Below are positions 19,586 through 37,669 of a DNA stretch of 37,877 nt, in pieces. The notes beneath the pieces are model-generated. The model was given only the letters and a program-made list of their open reading frames with translations, searched no databases and was not told the DNA's origin. This stretch comes from Bacteroidota bacterium (GTDB taxonomy: Bacteria > Bacteroidota > Rhodothermia > Rhodothermales > Rubricoccaceae): contig JADFQN010000011.1 of the NCBI GenBank assembly GCA_022561755.1, positions 1 to 37,877 of the forward strand, in the 5' to 3' direction. The position numbers and the translations under genes are program-made. The first letter of the stretch is position 1. Every line of letters starts with the position of its first letter.

Positions 19586-19610
19586 GGGGCTATAGCTCAG
19601 TTGGTAGAGT
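19586..19610 (+). pseudogene. 5'-half fragment of tRNA-Ala
   Basis: GGGGCTATAGCTCAGTTGGTAGAG is identical to the 5' acceptor and D-arm of the intact tRNA 98 bases downstream. The next bases (TGTCCCCGCAATTC...) form no proper anticodon arm, and there is no T-arm (GGTTCGA) or matching 3' acceptor. It is therefore a partial copy, not a working tRNA. Confidence 0.75.
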
Positions 19611-22431: not shown

Positions 22432-22516
22432 GGCAGTTTTCCGTAATGCATATTCCGTAGTATCGTGTGTAAGGGTACCCCGCCTACCCACTTTATGCAA
22501 TACGAACTACGTACGA

Positions 22517-22682
22517 GGAGCCTGTCGAACTTAGGAGAATTCTACTGCGGCGGCGGTAAATCGGCCCATTGTTTCCGATCTTTTTCGTTTCATAGCCCCA
22601 CTATGCGCCTCAAAAGATCAAAAAAATGAACTCGATTTCCCACTCACCTCGCTACGAACCCCTAAGTCCGACAGACTCCTAG
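22517..22682. mobile_element. MITE-like element family B, copy 2
   Basis: About 166 bases with inverted ends GGAGCCTGTCG / CGACAGACTCC, and the same interior as copies 1 and 3 (CTACTGCGGCGGCGG, TAAATCGGCCCATTG, GATCTTTTTCG, CCTCAAAAGATC). It lies between the type III PKS and methyltransferase genes. Its terminal CTAG provides the TAG stop of the PKS gene (22679-22681). Confidence 0.85.
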
Positions 22683-24950: not shown

Positions 24951-25138
24951 CTAGGAGCCTGTCGGATTTATGATGATTCTACTGCGGCGGCGGTTAATCG
25001 GCCCATTGTTCCGGTCTTTTTCGATACATAGGCTCACTATACTCCTCAAAAGATCGAAAAATGGCCTCGATTCTCCACTCGCCTCGCTACAGCCTGCCCC
25101 GCCTTGGCGGGGAACCCCTGAACCCGACAGGCTCCTAG
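24951..25138. mobile_element. MITE-like element family B, copy 3
   Basis: About 188 bases bounded by CTAGGAGCCTGTCGG and its exact inverse CCGACAGGCTCCTAG (15 bases perfect). It shares the family B interior but carries about 22 extra bases near the right end (GCCCCGCCTTGGCGGGG, itself a hairpin). It cuts a small reading frame on the minus strand (25135-25164). Confidence 0.88.
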
Positions 25139-25324: not shown

Positions 25325-26545
25325 ATGGCCGTCAGATTTTACCTCAACACTCGGTCCGACACAGGAAATAAACCCGTGTCGATCTGTCTCGTGGCCATGC
25401 GTGGGGGCACGCAGATTAAGATCTCCACACCAGTTAGGGCGCGGCCCTCCGACTGGGCGCGCAAACAGCAGCGCGTTCGGTCTTCCGTGCCCGGTGCTGC
25501 CGAAGTGAACGGGGCGCTAGCGAGGCTGAAGGCCGATGCTGAAAGAATGCTTCTGGATTGCCGCACCGAAGCCGAGCTTAGGCAGGCTCTCCGGGAACGG
25601 CTTGGGAAGGGTGAGGCCAATCAGGAATCGGACATACTCGAACTCTTCGACAGGTTCATTGAGCATAAGCGAACGCGGTGCAGTGTCTCTACGATAAATG
25701 GATACCGGGCGGCACGGGGGCATCTTGCGGCATTCCTCGACGACCGCACCATCGCGCCTTCGGCCATCGGCCCCAGCTGGTTGGATGATTTGGCCACGTT
25801 CCTCGCGGGCACAGGAGCTCAGAACAGCACGGTCAACAAGATTCTAACACGAACGAAGAGCTTCCTTCGGTGGCTAGTGAGGCGAGAAATGCTGGCGAAG
25901 GTGCCGGTCTCCGAACCGCTTCCTACTGCGCAGAACTTCACTGTTTACCTTTCCCTTGATGAGCTGGCTACCCTTGCCGGCCTCGACTTGTCCGAGTACC
26001 GGGAAAGCTATGAGGCAACACGAGACCACTTCATTCTTGGGGCCGTCACCGGGCAGCGGTTCAGCGACGTGCAGGCCCTCCGGTGGGAAGACCTCGTGCC
26101 ACCTAGTGAGCCACATATTTGGCGACTCGCGGTGAAGAAAACAGGCGATACGATCACCGTGCCGCTCGCAGCCCCAGCCCGCTCCATTTTGGAACGCCGC
26201 AGGGGTGAACCCCGGCCTCTACCCCGGCTCACGAATCAGAGGGCGAACATCATCATCAAAGAGCTTTGCAAACTGGCGGGGATTGATGAGCCGGTGACGA
26301 CACACCGCGTGAAGGGTAGTGGGCGGAGTTCCGAGACGAGACCCAAACACGAGGTCATTTCCATGCACGCGGCGAAGAGATCGTTTGTCACGGTGACGCT
26401 TCAGTCAGGGCTCGCGCCGCATGAATTGTTGGGTTTCACACACCGAGACCTGAAAACACTGGAATTGTATGCCGGGAAGGACCAGGGCCGACTTACGACG
26501 GCTCTAGGGCTCGCCTTCGACGACCTGGAGTTGAGGGCGGGGTGA
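25325..26545 (+). CDS. Tyrosine recombinase (integrase)
   Basis: A 406-residue integrase of the kind found in Bacteroidota mobile elements. It has an N-terminal arm-binding part (VRFYLNTRSDTGNKPVSI), a SAM-like core-binding domain at about 105-195 (DILELFDRFIEHKRT...LTRTKSFLRWLVRREML), and a catalytic domain from about 205. Arg 245 (TGQRFSDVQALRWEDL), Lys 271/272 and the Tyr 382 nucleophile (LELYAGKD) are in place. Two catalytic spots are unusual: the HxxR box reads HAAKR (Lys at the Arg position, Arg one later), and the usual GH before the Tyr reads GFTH. It catalyses element integration and excision. Its stop overlaps the next start (GTGA), so the two are coupled. Confidence 0.92.
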   Translation: MAVRFYLNTRSDTGNKPVSICLVAMRGGTQIKISTPVRARPSDWARKQQRVRSSVPGAAEVNGALARLKADAERMLLDCRTEAELRQALRERLGKGEANQESDILELFDRFIEHKRTRCSVSTINGYRAARGHLAAFLDDRTIAPSAIGPSWLDDLATFLAGTGAQNSTVNKILTRTKSFLRWLVRREMLAKVPVSEPLPTAQNFTVYLSLDELATLAGLDLSEYRESYEATRDHFILGAVTGQRFSDVQALRWEDLVPPSEPHIWRLAVKKTGDTITVPLAAPARSILERRRGEPRPLPRLTNQRANIIIKELCKLAGIDEPVTTHRVKGSGRSSETRPKHEVISMHAAKRSFVTVTLQSGLAPHELLGFTHRDLKTLELYAGKDQGRLTTALGLAFDDLELRAG

Positions 26546-27834
26546 GCGAAGGAGGGCCCTATCATATTAAGGGGAAGCACGTCTCGCGCTGGGAGTATCT
26601 CACCGAGTGCCATGGAGAGGTAATTGCCGACGCCGCGGAGCGGGGGCGCTACGGGTATTCGGACGAGGGGTGGGGCTATCTATATCTCCGTACCGACAGC
26701 ATCATTCCCAGACCCGAGCGGGTTAGTATTGAGAGGGTCTTTCCGATAGACGTGTCGGCCTTGGCAGACCCCGCCACGCACTTTCGTGGGCTGGCTTCGT
26801 GGACCCGGTTCTTGCAGTGGTCTCCTCAGATACAGGATAATGACGCCGCCGTGACAGAGCGTGACTACTCCTATCCGGCAAAGCATTTCGATTCCAAGGC
26901 CCCAAAACGCGTCGGAGAGCAATATGATAGGCTTCGAAGCGACCACTTTGCAAGAGGCAAGCCGAGGGCCGGGGCTGTAGCAGACCTCCGAGCACTCAAG
27001 AATGAAGCGCGGGAAAGCCTCCAGCATTGGGCAAAGCAGATAGGCTCAAAGCTGGAATCGCTCAGGAAAGTGGTGGCCGTGCTGTTCCTGGAAACATGGT
27101 GGGCTATGGACGTCGAGCCGGAGACGCCATGGGAAGACCTCCCGGAAGAGAGGCGAAACCGGCTTGATAGCCTGGAGGCCCTATTCGTAAGCAGATGGCG
27201 CGATGCGATATTCGGCGCTAGCCGGACCTGGGCGATTGGAAGAGATATCACTAACTGGTCGTGGGGCTGGGAGGATGCCCCGGAAGTACTCTATGAACTT
27301 CAAGGATCTCGGATTCTCAGCCTCTGGGACAGACGGGATGCAATCATAGATGAGGTTTTCCCCGTAGAGGTTCAGCGCATGGCGTGCGAGAACATTCTCG
27401 CTAAGATTGTTCGCGGGGAAGAAGTGGGCCCGTGGAGCAAAAAGGACGAAGAGAGCCTATTGCCTCCCAGAGAAGACTTCGTGTGTCAGTCTCGCGAAGC
27501 CAGACGGGACATTTTTGACCTCTACGACGCACTGAATGAGGGGGGATATCGTGAGGAGGAGTGGACGATCCACACTGATATATATCGGGTGTTGGCAAAA
27601 AGAGAGGCAGAAACGAAATCACCGAACACCTCCAGGTCCAAGTTTATTGCTGGCGAGGTTGAAAGGCTAGCCCTGATGGTAAAGCGGACGCTTGAGTGGC
27701 GAGGCGCTAATGGCTTCCCTGGCGATAATGCTGTCCTATCGGGGACCAGCGAGGAGGCTGCGAAGCATGTTTGTGACTGGCTTTTTGAAATAGGGTGCTC
27801 GCATAAGTCCGAGTGGATGCGCAAAATGGCGTAA
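26542..27834 (+). CDS. Unknown protein of the element (430 residues), coupled to the integrase
   Basis: Starts at a GTG overlapping the integrase stop by 4 bases. It has no signal peptide or membrane segment. The N-terminal third holds a beta-type segment rich in aromatic residues (GYSDEGWGYLYLR, FRGLASWTRFLQW). The rest is mostly helical and charged (LRALKNEARESLQHWAKQIGSKLESLRKVV). I recognise no domain. A gene in this position might be a regulator, an integrase partner or a cargo gene such as anti-phage defence; the sequence does not decide. Base composition is similar to the integrase. Confidence 0.75.
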   Translation: MSEGGPYHIKGKHVSRWEYLTECHGEVIADAAERGRYGYSDEGWGYLYLRTDSIIPRPERVSIERVFPIDVSALADPATHFRGLASWTRFLQWSPQIQDNDAAVTERDYSYPAKHFDSKAPKRVGEQYDRLRSDHFARGKPRAGAVADLRALKNEARESLQHWAKQIGSKLESLRKVVAVLFLETWWAMDVEPETPWEDLPEERRNRLDSLEALFVSRWRDAIFGASRTWAIGRDITNWSWGWEDAPEVLYELQGSRILSLWDRRDAIIDEVFPVEVQRMACENILAKIVRGEEVGPWSKKDEESLLPPREDFVCQSREARRDIFDLYDALNEGGYREEEWTIHTDIYRVLAKREAETKSPNTSRSKFIAGEVERLALMVKRTLEWRGANGFPGDNAVLSGTSEEAAKHVCDWLFEIGCSHKSEWMRKMA

Positions 27835-27839
27835 GGAAT

Positions 27840-27879
27840 TTCCGACAGCTGTCGAAGCCTGTCGGAAGAACTGTCGGAA
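27840..27879. promoter_or_regulatory. Cluster of four CTGTCGGAA-type sites before the excisionase-like gene
   Basis: TTCCGACAG (27840, inverted), CTGTCGAAG (27849), CTGTCGGAA (27859) and CTGTCGGAA (27871) lie within 40 bases, the first two joined as a perfect CGACAGCTGTCG palindrome. Spacing of the direct copies is 10 and 12 bases, about one helix turn. This fits cooperative binding by the element's own HTH regulator/excisionase, or iterons of a replication origin. Confidence 0.6.
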
Positions 27880-27925
27880 TGGGTTAGTTGTCTTTAGGGG
27901 AAATCGACAACCTTTAGGCTCCATC

Positions 27926-28153
27926 ATGCACCGACACCCATCACCCGCTCAAGACGAAGTTGAGCCCACGCCGTACCTCAGCATCGAGCAAGTGACGCGG
28001 CGGCTGCACATCTCCAAAACGACCTTGTGGCAATTGCGCCGTGACGGCAAAATCCGAGCCTTCCACGTCGGACGTCGCGTTCTCTTCAAATCCGACGATG
28101 TCACCGCTCTCGTCGAGCAGGACGGCGCAGAACCCATCCTCCAGCCCGCCTAA
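27926..28153 (+). CDS. Excisionase/AlpA-type helix-turn-helix protein
   Basis: A 75-residue protein made of one winged HTH: YLSIEQVTRRLHISKTTLWQLRRDGKIRAFHVGRRVLFKSDDVTALV. This is the pattern of the excisionase/MerR-like HTH_17 family (helix, recognition helix with TTLWQLRR, wing GRRVLFK). In integrated elements such proteins direct excision and/or switch on the integrase and replication genes. It lies 46 bases after a cluster of repeated operator-like sites. Good family match; the role is inferred from context. Confidence 0.88.
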   Translation: MHRHPSPAQDEVEPTPYLSIEQVTRRLHISKTTLWQLRRDGKIRAFHVGRRVLFKSDDVTALVEQDGAEPILQPA

Positions 28154-28258
28154 CCCCCTTTTAGCCCAAAACCCCGCCCCGGTATTCGCCGGAGACGGGG
28201 CTCGGGTACTCACGGCGCAGAGGCAGGTCAAAGCATTTGCGCGCATCACGTAGTAACA

Positions 28259-28756
28259 ATGCCTAAGAACATCATCACGACCGAACAAGATACGGCAGAT
28301 TCCCAGGAAAGGTCCAATAACGGTCATCGCCCAGACGGAATCCCCCGACAGGCTCTTGGGCGCTTCGTTAACCCGGGAAGCCATCGCATCATTTATAGTG
28401 GAGGTCCAGACAGCACGCTCCGATGGGCCTCCACAGTGTATGGCCGACAATCCGGCTCCGTTCTCCGCCTGGTAGAATTTCTCGTATCCAGAAACCGGAG
28501 ATTACTGGCCCTGCGGAAGAGGAATTTCCCCGTTCTACTCCCTGAAAGAATCTGCGAGCCATCGAATCAGACGTGGCGGCGGCGGCTCGTGGGCACGCCC
28601 GCGTACCAGGCTGATCGCCGGGCGCGGCGAGCCCGTGCGATAGTTGAGCTCTTGAAGCGGAGGCGAATACTCGGCAAGCAAGGCAACGCCCTGCCAACGC
28701 CGCGGCTGGTGCGGGGCGATTCTCGCCAGGCCCTTCAAGCAGCCGGGGCAGTATGA
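28259..28756 (+). CDS. Small basic protein of the element, unknown
   Basis: A 165-residue ORF ending in an ATGA overlap with the primase-like gene, which argues it is real. The middle and C-terminal parts are very rich in Arg (RRRLVGTPAYQADRRARRARAIVELLKRRRILGK), consistent with nucleic-acid binding. No family is recognised and no ribosome site is clear at 28259. A longer minus-strand ORF (28389-29054) overlaps it but runs into the primase gene, so I favour this strand. Confidence 0.5.
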   Translation: MPKNIITTEQDTADSQERSNNGHRPDGIPRQALGRFVNPGSHRIIYSGGPDSTLRWASTVYGRQSGSVLRLVEFLVSRNRRLLALRKRNFPVLLPERICEPSNQTWRRRLVGTPAYQADRRARRARAIVELLKRRRILGKQGNALPTPRLVRGDSRQALQAAGAV

Positions 28757-30552
28757 GCACTGACGTGACAGCACAAGAGAGGGTAGACCAGAAAGCTGCC
28801 GAATCCCGCAAGGCAGCGAAGGCGGATCCGGCAATGCTTCGCCAATTTCTACGCCTCACCGATAGCACTTCTGACGAAATGGTAAAGATGATCGCAGAGG
28901 CCGACGCGGCTGCGGTCACATTGCAGGGCGAGTACCAAGGTGCGAGAGTTCGCGCACGACAGCTACGCGAGGGGCAGGAGAAGTTGACACCGGACGGCTC
29001 GCTGCCTTTCATGCCCTTCCCAGTTGAGGAGGTATTCGCAGAGCCTCTAGCCAACTTCGTACGTACTCAGGAGGCTTCTATCGGCTGCGATGCAGCGGCT
29101 ATTGCCCTCCCCGTTATTGGGCAGATGGCGGCCGGAGTAGGTAACTCGCACCGCGTCGAAGTGATCGAAAACAACTGGTACGAGCCTTCGACTGTTTGGG
29201 TGTTCAACCTCGGCAAGTCCGGCACGCACAAGTCCGTCGTGCAGCGCGCCGCGTTGAAGCCCATGAAGAAGTGGGCGACAGATGCGTATGACGAGTACGC
29301 CTTTTCGATGGAATCGTACGACAACACGCTTGCCGAGTGGAGCGCAAAGCCGCCCAACGAACGAAAGGACAAGCCCACGCCGCCGGTATGCCAGCGATAC
29401 GCCGTCAATGATATCACGATTGAGGCGCACGCGATCATCCAATCCGAAAACCCGCACGGTGTGCCGCTGGCTAGGCCCGAGGGCAGTGGTTGGCTGAAAG
29501 GCATGGGCCAATACAAGAAAGGCGGTGGTGGCGAAATGTTGAGTTGGATAGAGTTCTGGGATGGTGACGAAATGACCATCGACAGGAAGACGGGCACGCA
29601 CCGCACCGTCCACATTCCCGCGCCATGTACTACCGTGATATCAGGAACACAACCGGGAGCATTGCGCCGGGACTTGACAGCTGAGCATTTTGACTCAGGA
29701 TTCGCCCCTCGTTTGCTTTTATGCGAGCCTCCCACGAGGCCCAGAAGGTTCACCTGCACGCCCGTGTCCACCGAGGTGTGGTACGAATACCACGCAGCGA
29801 TAGACGGGCTCTACGCCCGGCCCGATGGCGGCAGGCCAATCCCCTTCTCGCCAGAAGCCGAGGTGCTCTGGGAGAGATACTACAACACCTGTGCGGATGC
29901 CATTGAGCTGATCAAGTCTGATCGCTTGCGGGCCGCGTTCGTCAAGCTCGAAACGTATTGCGCTCGGTTCGCCTTGATCCTGCACCTCTTGGATGTTCAC
30001 CTGGATGGCGTGCCCCCCAATGAGGCGCCGCCGCCAATTTCGTTTGATGCGATGCGCCGGGCCGTTATTCTGGCGGTGTGGTGGAGGCACGAAACGGCGC
30101 GGATCTACGACAAATATGGATTCTTAGGCTTTGCCAACAGCAAGTTCGCTGAAAAGGCGGATGAGCTACCCGAGGTGTTCACCGCGAGAGACGTTGAGGA
30201 CGTTTGGAATGTCCAGCGGGCGCAGTCCTTCAAGATCATCAAGGGCCTGGTTCGTGATGGGATCGCGCGGCAGGACCAGCACGGCGAATACCGGAAAGAG
30301 ACGGTAGACTTTGGAGACTTTGGAGACTTTGCAGGCGTGACGATAGACACAAAGGCGTTACTTGCTGGGCTTGGGGCCAATAGTCTCGAAAGTCTCCAAA
30401 ATCCACAGTCCACACGGCCAGAAATCGAAACGGAGCCCGAGCCCTTGGAAGCCCGGCAAAACGGTAGCCACGAAGCGCCCGCCGGCGATGGGGTTAGCAC
30501 GGATGAGCCCGCCTTTGTTTGGGATGCAGACGACCAAGAAGGTGAGGCATAA
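28753..30552 (+). CDS. DUF3987 primase/helicase-like replication protein
   Basis: A 599-residue protein of the DUF3987 family, common in phages and integrative elements of Bacteroidota. The N-terminal FPVEEVFAEPLANFVRTQEASIGCDAAAIALPVI block leads to a P-loop-like GKSGTHKS at 154-161, in the position of Walker A. Next come SWIEFWDGDEMTIDRKTG, TTVISGTQPGALRRDL and FAPRLLLCEPP, all typical. The C-terminal part (about 475-515) looks like a winged helix (EVFTARDVEDVWNVQRAQSFKIIKGLVRDGIARQD). DUF3987 proteins are thought to be helicase-type ATPases used in element replication. DFGDFGDF near residue 520 comes from a repeated 9-mer. Confidence 0.9.
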   Translation: MSTDVTAQERVDQKAAESRKAAKADPAMLRQFLRLTDSTSDEMVKMIAEADAAAVTLQGEYQGARVRARQLREGQEKLTPDGSLPFMPFPVEEVFAEPLANFVRTQEASIGCDAAAIALPVIGQMAAGVGNSHRVEVIENNWYEPSTVWVFNLGKSGTHKSVVQRAALKPMKKWATDAYDEYAFSMESYDNTLAEWSAKPPNERKDKPTPPVCQRYAVNDITIEAHAIIQSENPHGVPLARPEGSGWLKGMGQYKKGGGGEMLSWIEFWDGDEMTIDRKTGTHRTVHIPAPCTTVISGTQPGALRRDLTAEHFDSGFAPRLLLCEPPTRPRRFTCTPVSTEVWYEYHAAIDGLYARPDGGRPIPFSPEAEVLWERYYNTCADAIELIKSDRLRAAFVKLETYCARFALILHLLDVHLDGVPPNEAPPPISFDAMRRAVILAVWWRHETARIYDKYGFLGFANSKFAEKADELPEVFTARDVEDVWNVQRAQSFKIIKGLVRDGIARQDQHGEYRKETVDFGDFGDFAGVTIDTKALLAGLGANSLESLQNPQSTRPEIETEPEPLEARQNGSHEAPAGDGVSTDEPAFVWDADDQEGEA

Positions 30553-30824
30553 TGAAGCCGATGACACAGGCCGAACTAAGCCAAGCCACAAGCAACGCGG
30601 CGCGGTGGTTTGACCATCATCGCAACCGCTACACAGCGGAGGACGAGGACCTGTTCGACGCGTTGCTCCAGTTGATTGAAACGCGCCTGCATCTGCTCGC
30701 GCTCAGCGAAGAACTGGAGCGCCGCCAGCTGCACGAACCAATGGCACAGGACCGCGCCGCCAACCCATCACCACACCACACACCGGTGCACTCACCCGCC
30801 TCCATCACCATCCCGACAAACTAA
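30552..30824 (+). CDS. Small helical protein of the element
   Basis: A 90-residue protein whose ATG overlaps the last base of the primase stop (TAATG). The middle (EDEDLFDALLQLIETRLHLLALSEELERRQL) is a long amphipathic helix, probably a coiled coil. The tail is rich in Pro/His/Ser. No family recognised. Tight coupling with its neighbours supports it being expressed. Confidence 0.6.
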   Translation: MKPMTQAELSQATSNAARWFDHHRNRYTAEDEDLFDALLQLIETRLHLLALSEELERRQLHEPMAQDRAANPSPHHTPVHSPASITIPTN

Positions 30825-30829
30825 TAGCT

Positions 30830-31288
30830 ATGGGCACCCGACTACAGGACACCTACTCAGACGACTTTAGAGCAGCCGCCCTTACGCTCGTAGAGGCTTC
30901 CGGCGGTAAGGGGCACGTCATGCGCGTGGCTGACCAGCTGGGCATCCCTGTGAGTACCCTGCATCACTGGTTCGCGACGAGCCAGAAGCAGAATGAGACC
31001 CCTGAGTTTGCAAGAACACGAGACATTAAAAAAGGTGAGCTTGTGGACTTGCTGGAAAGCCTCGTGTTAACCGCCCTGGGCGTACTCGACGACGCCGACA
31101 AGCTCAGCAGTGCACAGGTCCACCACGTGAGTACGGTCATGGGCACGGCGTTCGACAAACTCCAGCTATTAAAAGGAGAAGCGACACAGCGCACAGAAAC
31201 CACTATCGAGCGGGGAATCTACACGGACCTCCGGTACATACCGGATGTCGAAGAGGCTGAGATAGTCGAGGAACTGCGAAACGAGTGA
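30830..31288 (+). CDS. HTH protein resembling phage small terminase subunit
   Basis: A 152-residue protein. Residues 10-48 (DDFRAAALTLVEASGGKGHVMRVADQLGIPVSTLHHWF) form an HTH of the kind seen at the start of phage small terminases and in IS3-type transposase OrfA. There is no transposase continuation: the rest is a helical part (KKGELVDLLESLVLTALGVLDD...STVMGTAFDKLQLLKGEA), as in phage HTH/TerS-like proteins. If it is TerS-like, it would redirect a helper phage's packaging machinery to the element. This is inference from shape and position as the last gene of the element. Confidence 0.6.
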   Translation: MGTRLQDTYSDDFRAAALTLVEASGGKGHVMRVADQLGIPVSTLHHWFATSQKQNETPEFARTRDIKKGELVDLLESLVLTALGVLDDADKLSSAQVHHVSTVMGTAFDKLQLLKGEATQRTETTIERGIYTDLRYIPDVEEAEIVEELRNE

Positions 31289-32235: not shown

Positions 32236-32346
32236 CGGGCACGCGAGGCGATCTCCCATGCGGATGGTCTACCTAGCGGTACGTACCTCTACCGGCTGGA
32301 GACGCCGCAGGGTAGCCATGTGCGGACGATGCTGCTGGCGAAGTAG
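32236..32346 (+). pseudogene. Orphan C-terminal fragment of a T9SS sorting domain
   Basis: The plus strand reads ADGLPSGTYLYRLETPQGS, then HVRTMLLAK and a stop at 32344. This is the exact closing pattern of T9SS type A sorting domains (compare DASSLPSGVYVYTLRAEGQ in the M36 protease). No upstream part of a protein is in frame: a stop lies at 32233. It is the remains of a lost surface-protein gene. Confidence 0.7.
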
Positions 32347-32504
32347 GAGAACCCCCAATTCAGCATAAAACACCTTCCGCCCATGAGAGACCCGAGGGCT
32401 TCGAGCCGCCCCTCGTCGGCGGGCGGGCGTCGTGTGCGAACTAAGTGATGCTGTCCAGTTGGCCCAACTCGCTCCGTCTAACCCGCACGGACGGTCGGCG
32501 GCAG

Positions 32505-32541
32505 GCTCAGCCCGTAGAAGACGCGGAGTTCGCCGCCGTTG
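32505..32541 (-). repeat. Dispersed 37-base repeat (second copy at 33592-33628)
   Basis: CTCAGCCCGTAGAAGACGCGGAGTTCGC occurs here and at 33594, with a few differences just after it. On the minus strand both read ELRVFYGLS, and then each runs to a stop. They may be tails of related decayed genes rather than a regulatory repeat. Confidence 0.5.
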
Positions 32542-32829
32542 CCACCTGAGCAGCGCTTTGCCAGTAGCCATGCCGATGGTCGATTCGGAGTAGGCGCCCA
32601 ATATGCGGCGTTGACGTAACACTAATGTTCCCTGCGGCCAAACTGAATCACGCTGGGGCCCGGGGGCTCGATAGCTGCCCGCCTTGTTGTACTGGAGCGC
32701 GATACGCCAACCGGTGCTCGTTTCGCACTCTTGGGCTACTCAAGCACAAGATTGCATACGCGCCAACTCTGGGTTCTGAAAACCTCTCGACAAGATCGAC
32801 GTTACTAAGGAAAACCTTCCCCTTCTATC

Positions 32830-33408: not shown

Positions 33409-33827
33409 ACTGCCTTGGGGCCATCCCACGGCCTAAAGCAGCCCGCGTTGCTCGGCCGGGATTGATTCCACAATTGAAATCCTTGATAGCCGTGCTAGGG
33501 CGGATCGAGCGTCCTGATGACGAAGCCTTGATTCTTACTGGCCGTACGCTTGAGCGAGAAGCCGAAACACTGAATCGTCGCTTAGCACAACGCTCAGCCC
33601 GTAGAAGACGCGGAGTTCGCGGTCGTTGGGGCGTGAGCCGCTGCGACCGGAAGAGCGCGGCAGTGCCCCAGGGCGTTCTCCCTTCATTCGCAGACCCTTG
33701 ACTTTTGGAGAATTAGTCGTACATAGTGGTACACGTTTGAGCTGTGCCGCCAGCGCCTAGCTGGCCTGACGACCGTGTCCCCCCTCCTTCAGACGCCCCG
33801 AAGCCACCCTGATTGGAGGAACCACCG
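33409..33827. other. Gene-free stretch with a decayed fragment
   Basis: Holds the second copy of the dispersed 37-base repeat (33592-33628) within a minus-strand coding-like fragment (RPNDRELRVFYGLSVVLSDD... to a stop near 33532). A plus-strand 79-codon ORF (33462) looks like its shadow. The end holds the leader of the FG-GAP gene, with GGAGGA 7 bases before its ATG. Confidence 0.4.
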
Positions 33828-35366
33828 ATGAAAACACAGCTATCGAGACCCCCCGTGTCTCTGGCCCTGCCGCTCTTAGCGGTGCTGCTGAGCCTGACCA
33901 CAGTGACCGCTGCCCAGGTAACAGAGCACAAGCTCACCGCCTCCGACGGCGCCGCGGAAGACATCTTCGGCTTTTCGGTGTCGCTTTCGGGGGACCGCGC
34001 CCTCGTAGGGGCAATCGGAGACGACGACCTGGGTTCTGCCAGTGGTTCGGCGTACGTGTTCGAGCGGCAGGGGGATGGCTCCTGGCTCGAGGTGGACAAA
34101 CTCACAGCCTCCGACGGCGCAGCGATTGACGCCTTCGGCAATTCGGTTTCGCTTTCGGGGGATAGAGCCCTCGTAGGGGCTCGGGGGGACGACGACCTGG
34201 GCAATAGAAGCGGCTCGGCCTACGTGTTCGAGCGGCAGGGCGACGGCTCCTGGCTCGAGGTATTCAAGCTCACAGCCTCCGACGGCGCCGCGGAAGACTT
34301 GTTCGGTTCTGTGTCGCTTTCGGGGGACCACGCCCTCGTAGGGGCCCAATGGGACGACGACCTGGGCACGGACAGCGGCTCGGCGTACGTGTTCGAGCGG
34401 CAGGGGGACGGCTCCTGGCTCGAGGTGGACAAGCTCACCGCCTCCGACGGCGCAGCGTTTGATCGCTTTGGCAGTTCGGTGTCGCTTTCGGAGGGGACCC
34501 GCGCCCTCGTAGGAGCCAGAGATGACGACGACCCTGCGGAAAGCGGCTCGGCCTACGTGTTCGAGCGGCAGGGGGATGGCTCCTGGCTCGAGGTGGACAA
34601 ACTCACAGCCTCCGACGGCGCAGCGGATGACGTCTTCGGTATTTCGGTGTCGCTTTCGGGGGACCACGCCCTCGTGGGGGCCAACGGGGACGACGACCTG
34701 GGTTCTGCCAGTGGTTCGGCGTACGTGTTCGAGCGGCAGGAGGATGGCTCCTGGCTCGAGGTGGACAAACTCACAGCCTCCGACGGCGCAGCGTTTGACG
34801 CCTTCGGCTTTTCGGTGTCGCTTTCAGGGGATCGCGCCCTCGTCGGGGCTCTGGGAGACGACAACTTTAGCGGCTCAGCGTATGTGTTCGCGCAACAGGG
34901 AGACGGCTCCTGGCTAGAGGTCGACAAGCTCACAGCCTCCGATGGCGCTGCGTTTGATCGCTTTGGCAGTTCGGTGTCGCTTTCGGGGGACCACGCCCTC
35001 GTGGGGGCCACGGAAGACGACGACCTGGGCCTGAGCAGCGGCTCGGCGTACGTGTTCGGTAACCTCTTGCCGACCGCGGTAGAAATGGCCGCCTTGCCCC
35101 AGGGCTATCTGCTATCGGCGCCTTATCCGAACCCGTTTAACCCTCGCGCCGTGGTGCCGTTCGAGGTGCCGGAAGCGGCGCACGTCCGGTTGACGCTCGT
35201 CGACATCTTTGGCCGTGAGGTTGCAATTCTATTGGACCGACAGGTAGCCGCCGGAAGCCACGAGGCTGTGCTCAACGGTGGCCGTTTGGCCAGTGGAGTG
35301 TATCTCGTTCGCATGGAGGCAGAAGGAATTATCCACGCGACACAAAAGGTGCTGTTGCTACGATAG
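33828..35366 (+). CDS. Secreted FG-GAP beta-propeller protein with T9SS sorting domain
   Basis: About 512 residues from the ATG at 33828 (GGAGGA ribosome site). It has a signal peptide ending TVTAAQ, then seven near-identical repeats of about 56 residues, each KLTASDGAAxDxFGxSVSLSGDxALVGAxxDDDLG...GSAYVFERQGDGSWLEV. These are FG-GAP/integrin-alpha-type blades with a Ca-binding-like DDD loop. Seven blades would make a closed propeller. The end is a T9SS sorting domain from YPNPFNPRAVVPFEV, so the protein should reach the cell surface. Blade 3 has lost a residue (LFGSVSLSG) and blade 4 carries SEGTRALVGARDDDDPAE. The ligand is unknown; adhesion is the usual guess. Confidence 0.93.
   Translation: MKTQLSRPPVSLALPLLAVLLSLTTVTAAQVTEHKLTASDGAAEDIFGFSVSLSGDRALVGAIGDDDLGSASGSAYVFERQGDGSWLEVDKLTASDGAAIDAFGNSVSLSGDRALVGARGDDDLGNRSGSAYVFERQGDGSWLEVFKLTASDGAAEDLFGSVSLSGDHALVGAQWDDDLGTDSGSAYVFERQGDGSWLEVDKLTASDGAAFDRFGSSVSLSEGTRALVGARDDDDPAESGSAYVFERQGDGSWLEVDKLTASDGAADDVFGISVSLSGDHALVGANGDDDLGSASGSAYVFERQEDGSWLEVDKLTASDGAAFDAFGFSVSLSGDRALVGALGDDNFSGSAYVFAQQGDGSWLEVDKLTASDGAAFDRFGSSVSLSGDHALVGATEDDDLGLSSGSAYVFGNLLPTAVEMAALPQGYLLSAPYPNPFNPRAVVPFEVPEAAHVRLTLVDIFGREVAILLDRQVAAGSHEAVLNGGRLASGVYLVRMEAEGIIHATQKVLLLR
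33927..35058 (+). repeat. Seven tandem repeats of about 168 bases inside the FG-GAP gene
   Basis: Units start near 33930, 34098, 34266, 34431, 34599, 34767 and 34926 (spacing 168, 168, 165, 168, 168, 159). DNA identity between units is very high, so copy number should vary by recombination in steps that keep the frame. Long antisense ORFs here are produced by the repeat. Confidence 0.92.
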
Positions 35367-35686: not shown

Positions 35687-36235
35687 ATGGTTGCGGCTTG
35701 GGCAGTCACGCAAGATTTCATGCAGAAGTATTTCCGATCCTTGGCCACTCCAGGTCATGACAATCATTTCGACGGGGGTAAACGATACTCCTCCCACCAT
35801 GCGACGCCCGGTGCCTGGATTCAGATATTTACCGACACTGGTTCTGCCAACGAAGAAGATTATCCTCTTGATCACCCAGACGGACCTTCTACGTCTGAGG
35901 CTAGACGAGCATTCATAAATGCGATATCTGATCACGGTGACCGAGCAGACGCCTCCTTTACCCTTGAAGAGCTAGAAGCTGTTGGGCAGGTACAGGGTCT
36001 TTTCGCATTCCGCACACCCCAAGATGCCATCGAATACTCGAATGAAAATGTTTACACACGCTCAGGGAAAGACCGCTATGTAGTACTGACCGGGAAGGTA
36101 GTAGGAACTGCCGTTGAAGATCGCTCCGTAGTTATTGCGGATCATCGCCTGGTGGATGGCCCTATGTCCCGTGCTGACCTACTTGCTAGCTATTCAGAGG
36201 AGGCCGAGAGCGAGTCTTCTTCCTCGTACGAATAA
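35687..36235 (+). CDS. Unknown protein, paired with DUF4238 gene
   Basis: A 182-residue ORF whose stop directly abuts the next ATG (TAAATG), so the two are probably one unit. The start is uncertain: ATG 35687, or the ATG 33 bases later (MQKYFRSLATPGH). It is acidic with a Ser/Glu-rich end (EEAESESSSSYE). The middle (LFAFRTPQDAIEYSNENVYTRSGKDRYVVLTGKVVG) looks like a small alpha/beta domain. I recognise no family. DNA is visibly more AT-rich than the flanking genes, suggesting transfer. Confidence 0.65.
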   Translation: MVAAWAVTQDFMQKYFRSLATPGHDNHFDGGKRYSSHHATPGAWIQIFTDTGSANEEDYPLDHPDGPSTSEARRAFINAISDHGDRADASFTLEELEAVGQVQGLFAFRTPQDAIEYSNENVYTRSGKDRYVVLTGKVVGTAVEDRSVVIADHRLVDGPMSRADLLASYSEEAESESSSSYE

Positions 36236-37150
36236 ATGGGAATCGAATCTCGACGGCATCACTTCGTTCCACAGTTCTTTCTTAAACGATTCGGCAGGGT
36301 CGTAGACGGAAATACTCAACTCTACGCGATAGATCTCAAAGAAGGGAATCGTTTCAAGTCGGGGACGAGAGGCCTCGCGGTGAAGAAAGACTTTCATCGA
36401 GTTGAGTTTGGTGATATCGCTCCAGATTATGTTGAAAATGAGCTCTCCAAGATCGAGGGGCGAGTTGCTTCAGTATTTCGTGAGATAGATCAATCCAGAC
36501 TCCTGCCACATCTGGAAAGCGAGAATTACGCATTCCTGATGACGTTCATAGCCCTTCTTGGTGTCAAGCACCCCGCAGTGCGAAAACAATACGAGGAATT
36601 TCTGAGGCGCGAAGACCAAGCATTAAATGAACTCATTGTATCTACTCCTGAAGTCTGGGCCAATGTGGTTTCCCGCATGAGAAGAGATGGATACGTTGAC
36701 CCAGTCCTACCGTACGACGAGATGCGGCAGTTCGTCATGGAAGGAGAGAACGAGACTAGGTTCGTTCCTGGAGACAGCTTGCTACGCGAGCTTCAAGGTG
36801 TAGACAAAATCGCCCCCATCCTCGGCCAAAGAAACTGGCATCTACTCGAAGCTGACCCCACTGCGAGTCACTTGATTTGCTCAGATAGACCCGTGAGTTT
36901 GCTTCCGAATCAGTTTGGCGTCAGTCTGCAGGCATACGGCTTTGGAACTCCTGGAACAGATCTCATTTCCCCTATCGGTTCCAAGATGGTGATGGTCGGT
37001 CGTATGGAAGAGGGGCTGTCGGATGGGCAGCTAGACAAACAGGGAGTGGCGGCAATCAACAGTAAGACTGTCCGGACTTGTGACCGATTTGTTTACTCCG
37101 CGGAGGAGACATTCTCGTGTCTAACGACAATGGGAATTGAACGAGGTTAG
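36236..37150 (+). CDS. DUF4238-domain protein
   Basis: A 304-residue cytoplasmic protein with the DUF4238 entry motif RHHFVPQFFLKRF, followed by VKKDFHRVEFGDIAPDYVENELSKIEGRVA and FLMTFIALLGVKHPAVRK. The later NWHLLEA...HLICSDRPV block is typical too. The family is widespread and patchy in bacteria, and its function is unknown. It follows its partner gene with no gap. More AT-rich than its neighbours; a degenerate tRNA 3' half lies 96 bases downstream, so the pair may be an inserted unit. Confidence 0.88.
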   Translation: MGIESRRHHFVPQFFLKRFGRVVDGNTQLYAIDLKEGNRFKSGTRGLAVKKDFHRVEFGDIAPDYVENELSKIEGRVASVFREIDQSRLLPHLESENYAFLMTFIALLGVKHPAVRKQYEEFLRREDQALNELIVSTPEVWANVVSRMRRDGYVDPVLPYDEMRQFVMEGENETRFVPGDSLLRELQGVDKIAPILGQRNWHLLEADPTASHLICSDRPVSLLPNQFGVSLQAYGFGTPGTDLISPIGSKMVMVGRMEEGLSDGQLDKQGVAAINSKTVRTCDRFVYSAEETFSCLTTMGIERG

Positions 37151-37246
37151 CGATCAGTCGTCTCGTCGGATAGGGAAACCCAATCTCTCCAGTTGGGCTC
37201 CAATCTCTACTATGGTTGCGGGTGTTAGAGTCTCTCGACTGACTCG

Positions 37247-37291
37247 TACCCCCTGTAGGACTCGAACCTACGACAGCCTGATTAAGTCAGG
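37247..37291 (-). pseudogene. Degenerate tRNA 3' half
   Basis: On the minus strand: CCTGA-CTTAA-TCAGG (anticodon-like stem with a loop of only 5), then T-arm GTAGG-TTCGAGT-CCTAC, then AGGGGGTA like a 3' acceptor and discriminator. No matching 5' acceptor or D-arm lies upstream. A tRNA 3' end without its 5' half is the usual scar of tRNA-targeted integration. Confidence 0.6.
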
Positions 37292-37669
37292 TCCTCCCAG
37301 CGGTTCGCGGCTTTTGCGAGCTATTGGTCGTCCTTCGTCAATTGGACCTGCCTAACGGGGCAACTAGGGGCTCTACGGGAACAGACTTGGGGAGCTTCCA
37401 TGGGGTGCCTTGTCTTCCATGGGGTGCTTTTTCGAGCCATGCCGGTGGCTATTTCTTCAAATAACCAACTTCGATCTCTTGTTTCGCCAATGCCAGCGAC
37501 ACATCGGTCTGGGGACTCGCAGCATTTGTTATCTCAATCCTCGAATGATTCGAGAGGATTCAGTTCTAGCCAACGGAGATTGAACCAGCCAGTGGGCTGA
37601 AGTAACTACATTCGATGGAAAATCGGATAGTCCGATTAATCAGCAATTAGACCGCACGAGGTCGGGAGT
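37292..37669. other. Gene-free stretch before the amidohydrolase-like gene
   Basis: Contains a 14-base direct repeat (CTTCCATGGGGTGC at about 37396 and 37414). A 66-codon ORF (37400-37600) has no supporting features. The end should hold the promoter of the gene at 37670. Confidence 0.35.

Follow-up and report, generated by a model that had tools for sequence, protein, structure and literature searches.

The 304-residue DUF4238 protein encoded toward the end of the window (the whole 37,877-nucleotide stretch analyzed here, from a Bacteroidota genome of the family Rubricoccaceae) is probably the product of a horizontally acquired, single-protein anti-phage gene, carried on a mobile, species-specific island and preceded by an unrelated, lineage-specific open reading frame (ORF). 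The most likely description of the locus is an ordinary solo DUF4238 defense gene behind an unrelated orphan ORF. The orphan, of 182 codons, occupies 35687..36235 and the DUF4238 gene 36236..37150, both on the plus strand, and they meet at TAA|ATG, with no spacer between the stop of one and the start codon of the other. A sequence-only reading of this DNA had placed two abutting ORFs here, as the coordinates and the junction, read directly, confirm, and had proposed that they form a transferred two-gene unit, possibly defense or toxin-antitoxin-like. It had also noted that the pair is unlike its neighbors in composition, and this holds: GC content is 51.4% in the orphan ORF and 49.9% in the DUF4238 ORF, versus 55.1 to 63.8% in 13 host genes of the window and 64.2% in the adjacent FG-GAP gene, and third-position GC is 0.46 to 0.51 in the pair versus 0.62 to 0.85 in the host genes. 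First-position GC is raised in both ORFs (0.60 to 0.62). A scan for promoters and terminators returned matches at chance level and none beyond.

Membership of the 304-residue protein in the DUF4238 family (Pfam PF14022) is clear, with a match over residues 7 to 290 (E = 1.9e-31) that covers model positions 1 to 279 of 281 and scores 109.9 bits, against a curated cut-off of 27. The PADLOC profile DUF4238-Pers also matches, over residues 5 to 297 (E value of 1.2e-31). Conservation was judged on an alignment of 57 family members, in which M1, H9, Q13, L16, P113, and P219 do not vary and H8, E67, E74, R116, R199, W201, D217, and N275 hardly do; the window protein has every one of these. The N-terminal family motif HHxxPQxxL reads HHFVPQFFL in the window protein and the central SDxPV reads SDRPV, while departures from the family are found at Y15, F213, and F257, replaced by F, L, and M, respectively. 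Structure prediction, which the sequence-only reading had suggested as a check, gave a confident AlphaFold2 model (pLDDT 94.9). A fold search of the PDB with this model found no match at an E value of 0.001 or below, and the same search among viral proteins found a single match, to a protein of phage Smp131.

A defensive role for this family has been published. In the work of Rousset et al. (2022), one DUF4238 protein cloned from the P2 hotspot conferred strong resistance to T7 in E. coli (PMC9122126). By its sequence, the window protein is a distant, full-length relative of this T7-blocking type, with 27% identity over residues 5 to 298 (E = 3e-37) to an E. coli P2-site DUF4238 protein that is of the same type as the T7-blocking one and may not be the very protein tested. 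Compared with the known single-gene system (DUF4238-Pers in PADLOC), it belongs to the same Pfam family over its full length with the most conserved motifs intact, and the location is mobile in both cases. The E. coli gene stands alone in a P2-like prophage, between the replication endonuclease and portal genes, whereas the window gene lies in a recombinase-led chromosomal island, follows an abutting orphan ORF, is separated from its counterpart by the low identity given above, and has an activity that is predicted only. By analogy, we infer a defense activity for the window protein as well. Because identity to its closest relatives, the E. coli P2-site member included, is only about 27 to 33%, that activity need not be conserved.

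To ask what accompanies the gene elsewhere, we compared 97 other DUF4238 loci (80 genomic and 17 viral), together with nine plasmid loci. Co-directional upstream genes are common at these loci, and in six (L018, L023, L067, L075, L123, and L133) the upstream gene overlaps DUF4238 by 1 to 4 bases. These upstream genes are mutually unrelated, the exceptions being near-identical copies and the upstream genes of L023 and L120, which are homologous; that of L067 is a resolvase. A homologue of the 182-residue protein is found beside DUF4238 at none of the 97 loci or the nine plasmid loci, nor at ten further loci recovered by searches of the order and the phylum. Among 126 scanned neighbors of DUF4238 relatives, each Pfam family turns up three times at most. 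These neighbors comprise genes of phages and plasmids, recombinase genes, and a wide variety of defense genes, including PARIS AriAB, DISARM DrmC, a type IIG restriction-modification gene, a DRT-type reverse transcriptase, ApeA, and AbiH, as well as a resolvase, plasmid RepC, and P2 genes. Such varied neighborhoods are the picture of a solo defense gene residing in defense islands. The defense-like character first suggested for the locus is thus borne out, as a prediction and for DUF4238, by a published anti-T7 member and by relatives found among diverse defense and mobile genes.

The 182-residue protein is an orphan by every search made. It is acidic (pI 4.7) and matches no Pfam, PHROGs, NCBIfam, or PADLOC family, and tblastn against plasmids and phages found no relative. 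Relatives are likewise lacking in 114 genomes of the order, in 396 of the phylum, and in 40 genomes that carry DUF4238 relatives, and exact-word scans of GTDB and IMG/VR contigs, a method that sees close relatives only, found none. The best weak match (E = 0.007, in genome G018) falls inside what appears from its sequence to be a dihydrolipoamide-acyltransferase-like protein and was taken as chance. A single-sequence structure model was unusable (pLDDT 34.6) and was set aside. The ORF is only probably a gene, because a frame as long arises in 40 of 2,000 base shuffles of the region (2%) and no relative offers proof.

Lateral gain of the DUF4238 gene is well supported, since the region is missing from a genome of the same genus, is led by a recombinase, and carries a gene that is patchily distributed in the family and order. 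Positions 20.1 to 24.85 kb of the window are syntenic with contig C104 of G001, a genome of the same genus. Beyond the synteny, the backbone of G001 continues with a small gene and then valS; in the window, a repeated element takes the place of this junction, followed by genes for a tyrosine recombinase, an HTH_17 protein, and a DUF3987 helicase-like protein and by everything else up to the contig end, and from about 25.1 kb onward this DNA is absent from G001. The valS gene of the window's own genome lies near the end of another contig (C153), and the right-hand junction of the island falls outside the assembled sequence. The recombinase, an integrase at 25325..26545 on the plus strand (phrog_1, E = 1.9e-23), lies at the left edge of the species-specific region. 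It is followed on the same strand by the excisionase-like HTH_17 gene (27926..28153; PF12728, E = 4.3e-12) and the DUF3987 gene, of phage helicase/primase-like type (28753..30552; PF13148, E = 4.6e-52; phrog_2373 DNA helicase, E = 3.7e-27). DUF4238 itself is lacking from all eight of the family's other genomes and occurs in 4 of the order's 114, this genome counted; together with the DNA missing from the same-genus genome, these counts substantiate, for DUF4238, the earlier suggestion of a transferred gene.

Positions 25325 to 31288 form a compact integrative element that comprises the integrase, a 430-residue gene without a family, the HTH_17 and DUF3987 helicase-like genes, and small genes; two of its genes have weak relatives elsewhere in the genome, on contig C193. 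A short repeated element, a MITE-like family with more than 25 further copies in the genome, is present at 22516-22682 and, at the left border of the island, at 24953-25136, where it is flanked by the inverted ends AGGAGCCTGTCGG and CCGACAGGCTCCT. Dispersed repeats at 32293-32667 and 33590-33917 match parts of contigs C191 and C193, mostly at 87 to 95% identity. The FG-GAP repeat protein (33813-35366) has about seven tandem repeats, spaced at 159 to 168 bases, and a C-terminal sorting domain, and the rest of the genome holds three or more close copies of its gene (C174, C156, and C37). At 19587-19610, 98 bases ahead of the corresponding stretch of an intact tRNA-Ala, lies a 5'-half tRNA fragment, GGGGCTATAGCTCAGTTGGTAGAG, the second partial tRNA of the window.

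The first is a pseudo-tRNA downstream of DUF4238, a 3'-half scar of tRNA-Lys(CTT) at 37246..37296 on the minus strand. The scar had already been seen in the sequence-only reading and stands, with a 51-base match at 91% to the genome's own tRNA-Lys(CTT), although the distance from the DUF4238 stop is 95 bases rather than the 96 first given. The letters CT of the anticodon loop are deleted in the scar and the 5' half is absent; the intact gene belongs to a tRNA cluster (Pro-Arg-Cys-Lys) on contig C137. For a 20-base piece of the scar, shuffles of the window lead one to expect 0 matches. The scar may be the end of the recombinase-led element or an older trace, and a second att copy that would tie it to the integrase at 25325 is absent from the window.

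Could the two abutting genes nevertheless be a true two-gene defense or toxin-antitoxin unit, the acidic protein serving as a lineage-specific inhibitor, sensor, or activator of DUF4238, with translation coupled through TAAATG? The absence of a spacer, the shared strand and low GC, the low pI of the first product, and the tightly coupled upstream genes of several DUF4238 relatives (the 1- to 4-base overlaps) speak for such a unit, and a pair of short genes that abut and run in one direction within a mobile island does resemble type II toxin-antitoxin operons in general. We nonetheless consider it unlikely. Apart from L023 and L120, the coupled genes of the relatives are unrelated to one another, the 182-residue protein has a homologue in no collection searched, and the E. 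coli member works alone (PMC9122126). Unlike toxin-antitoxin operons, the window proteins show neither a toxin-antitoxin family match nor a conserved pair, and that part of the original proposal is unsupported. The two-gene unit itself fares no better, with no homologue of the first protein anywhere searched and no such partner at the other loci; whether homologues of that protein always pair with DUF4238 had been put forward as the check, and since none was found there is no recurring pairing at the loci compared, an outcome that the sequence-only reading had itself named as refuting its proposal. There is a small chance that the 182-residue protein is a new accessory or control protein of the DUF4238 effector, specific to this lineage and with a fold unseen in solved structures.

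Slightly less likely still is the notion that these ORFs are debris of a degrading island, passengers between integration scars, with the upstream ORF a chance or decayed frame under no selection for function. The tRNA scar and repeats close by, the orphan status and low-confidence model of the 182-residue protein, and the frequency of frames of its length in shuffled sequence would fit such decay, but DUF4238 is full length with the most conserved motifs intact, and the enrichment of GC at first positions is seen in both frames. A role outside defense, for example in maintenance of the mobile element or in general processing of nucleic acids or metabolites, strikes us as very improbable. The molecular function of the family is unknown (PMC9122126) and the context is mobile, but DUF4238 neighborhoods are rich in diverse defense genes and anti-phage activity has been published for one member.

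Under the preferred reading of a solo defense gene, one soluble DUF4238 protein would act within the infected cell, by way of a putative conserved polar site made up of H8, H9, Q13, E67, E74, R116, R199, W201, D217, and N275. The protein would most likely be an enzyme-type effector that halts phage development. The enzymatic step is a guess, because the confident model found no match among solved folds, and the conserved residues could be structural rather than active-site residues. The 182-residue protein would be dispensable for DUF4238, and the TAAATG coupling, which has no spacer and no obvious ribosome site, probably reflects mere read-through expression.

Our comparison shows that the DUF4238 family retains no fixed partner, and it extends a published, mechanistically unexplained single-gene defense to this lineage. 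If the 182-residue protein were an accessory after all, the locus would represent a two-gene variant of a defense so far known as single gene. The alignment of 57 members yields a confidently predicted fold that lacks a counterpart among solved structures, and the conserved residues listed above are direct targets for mutation.
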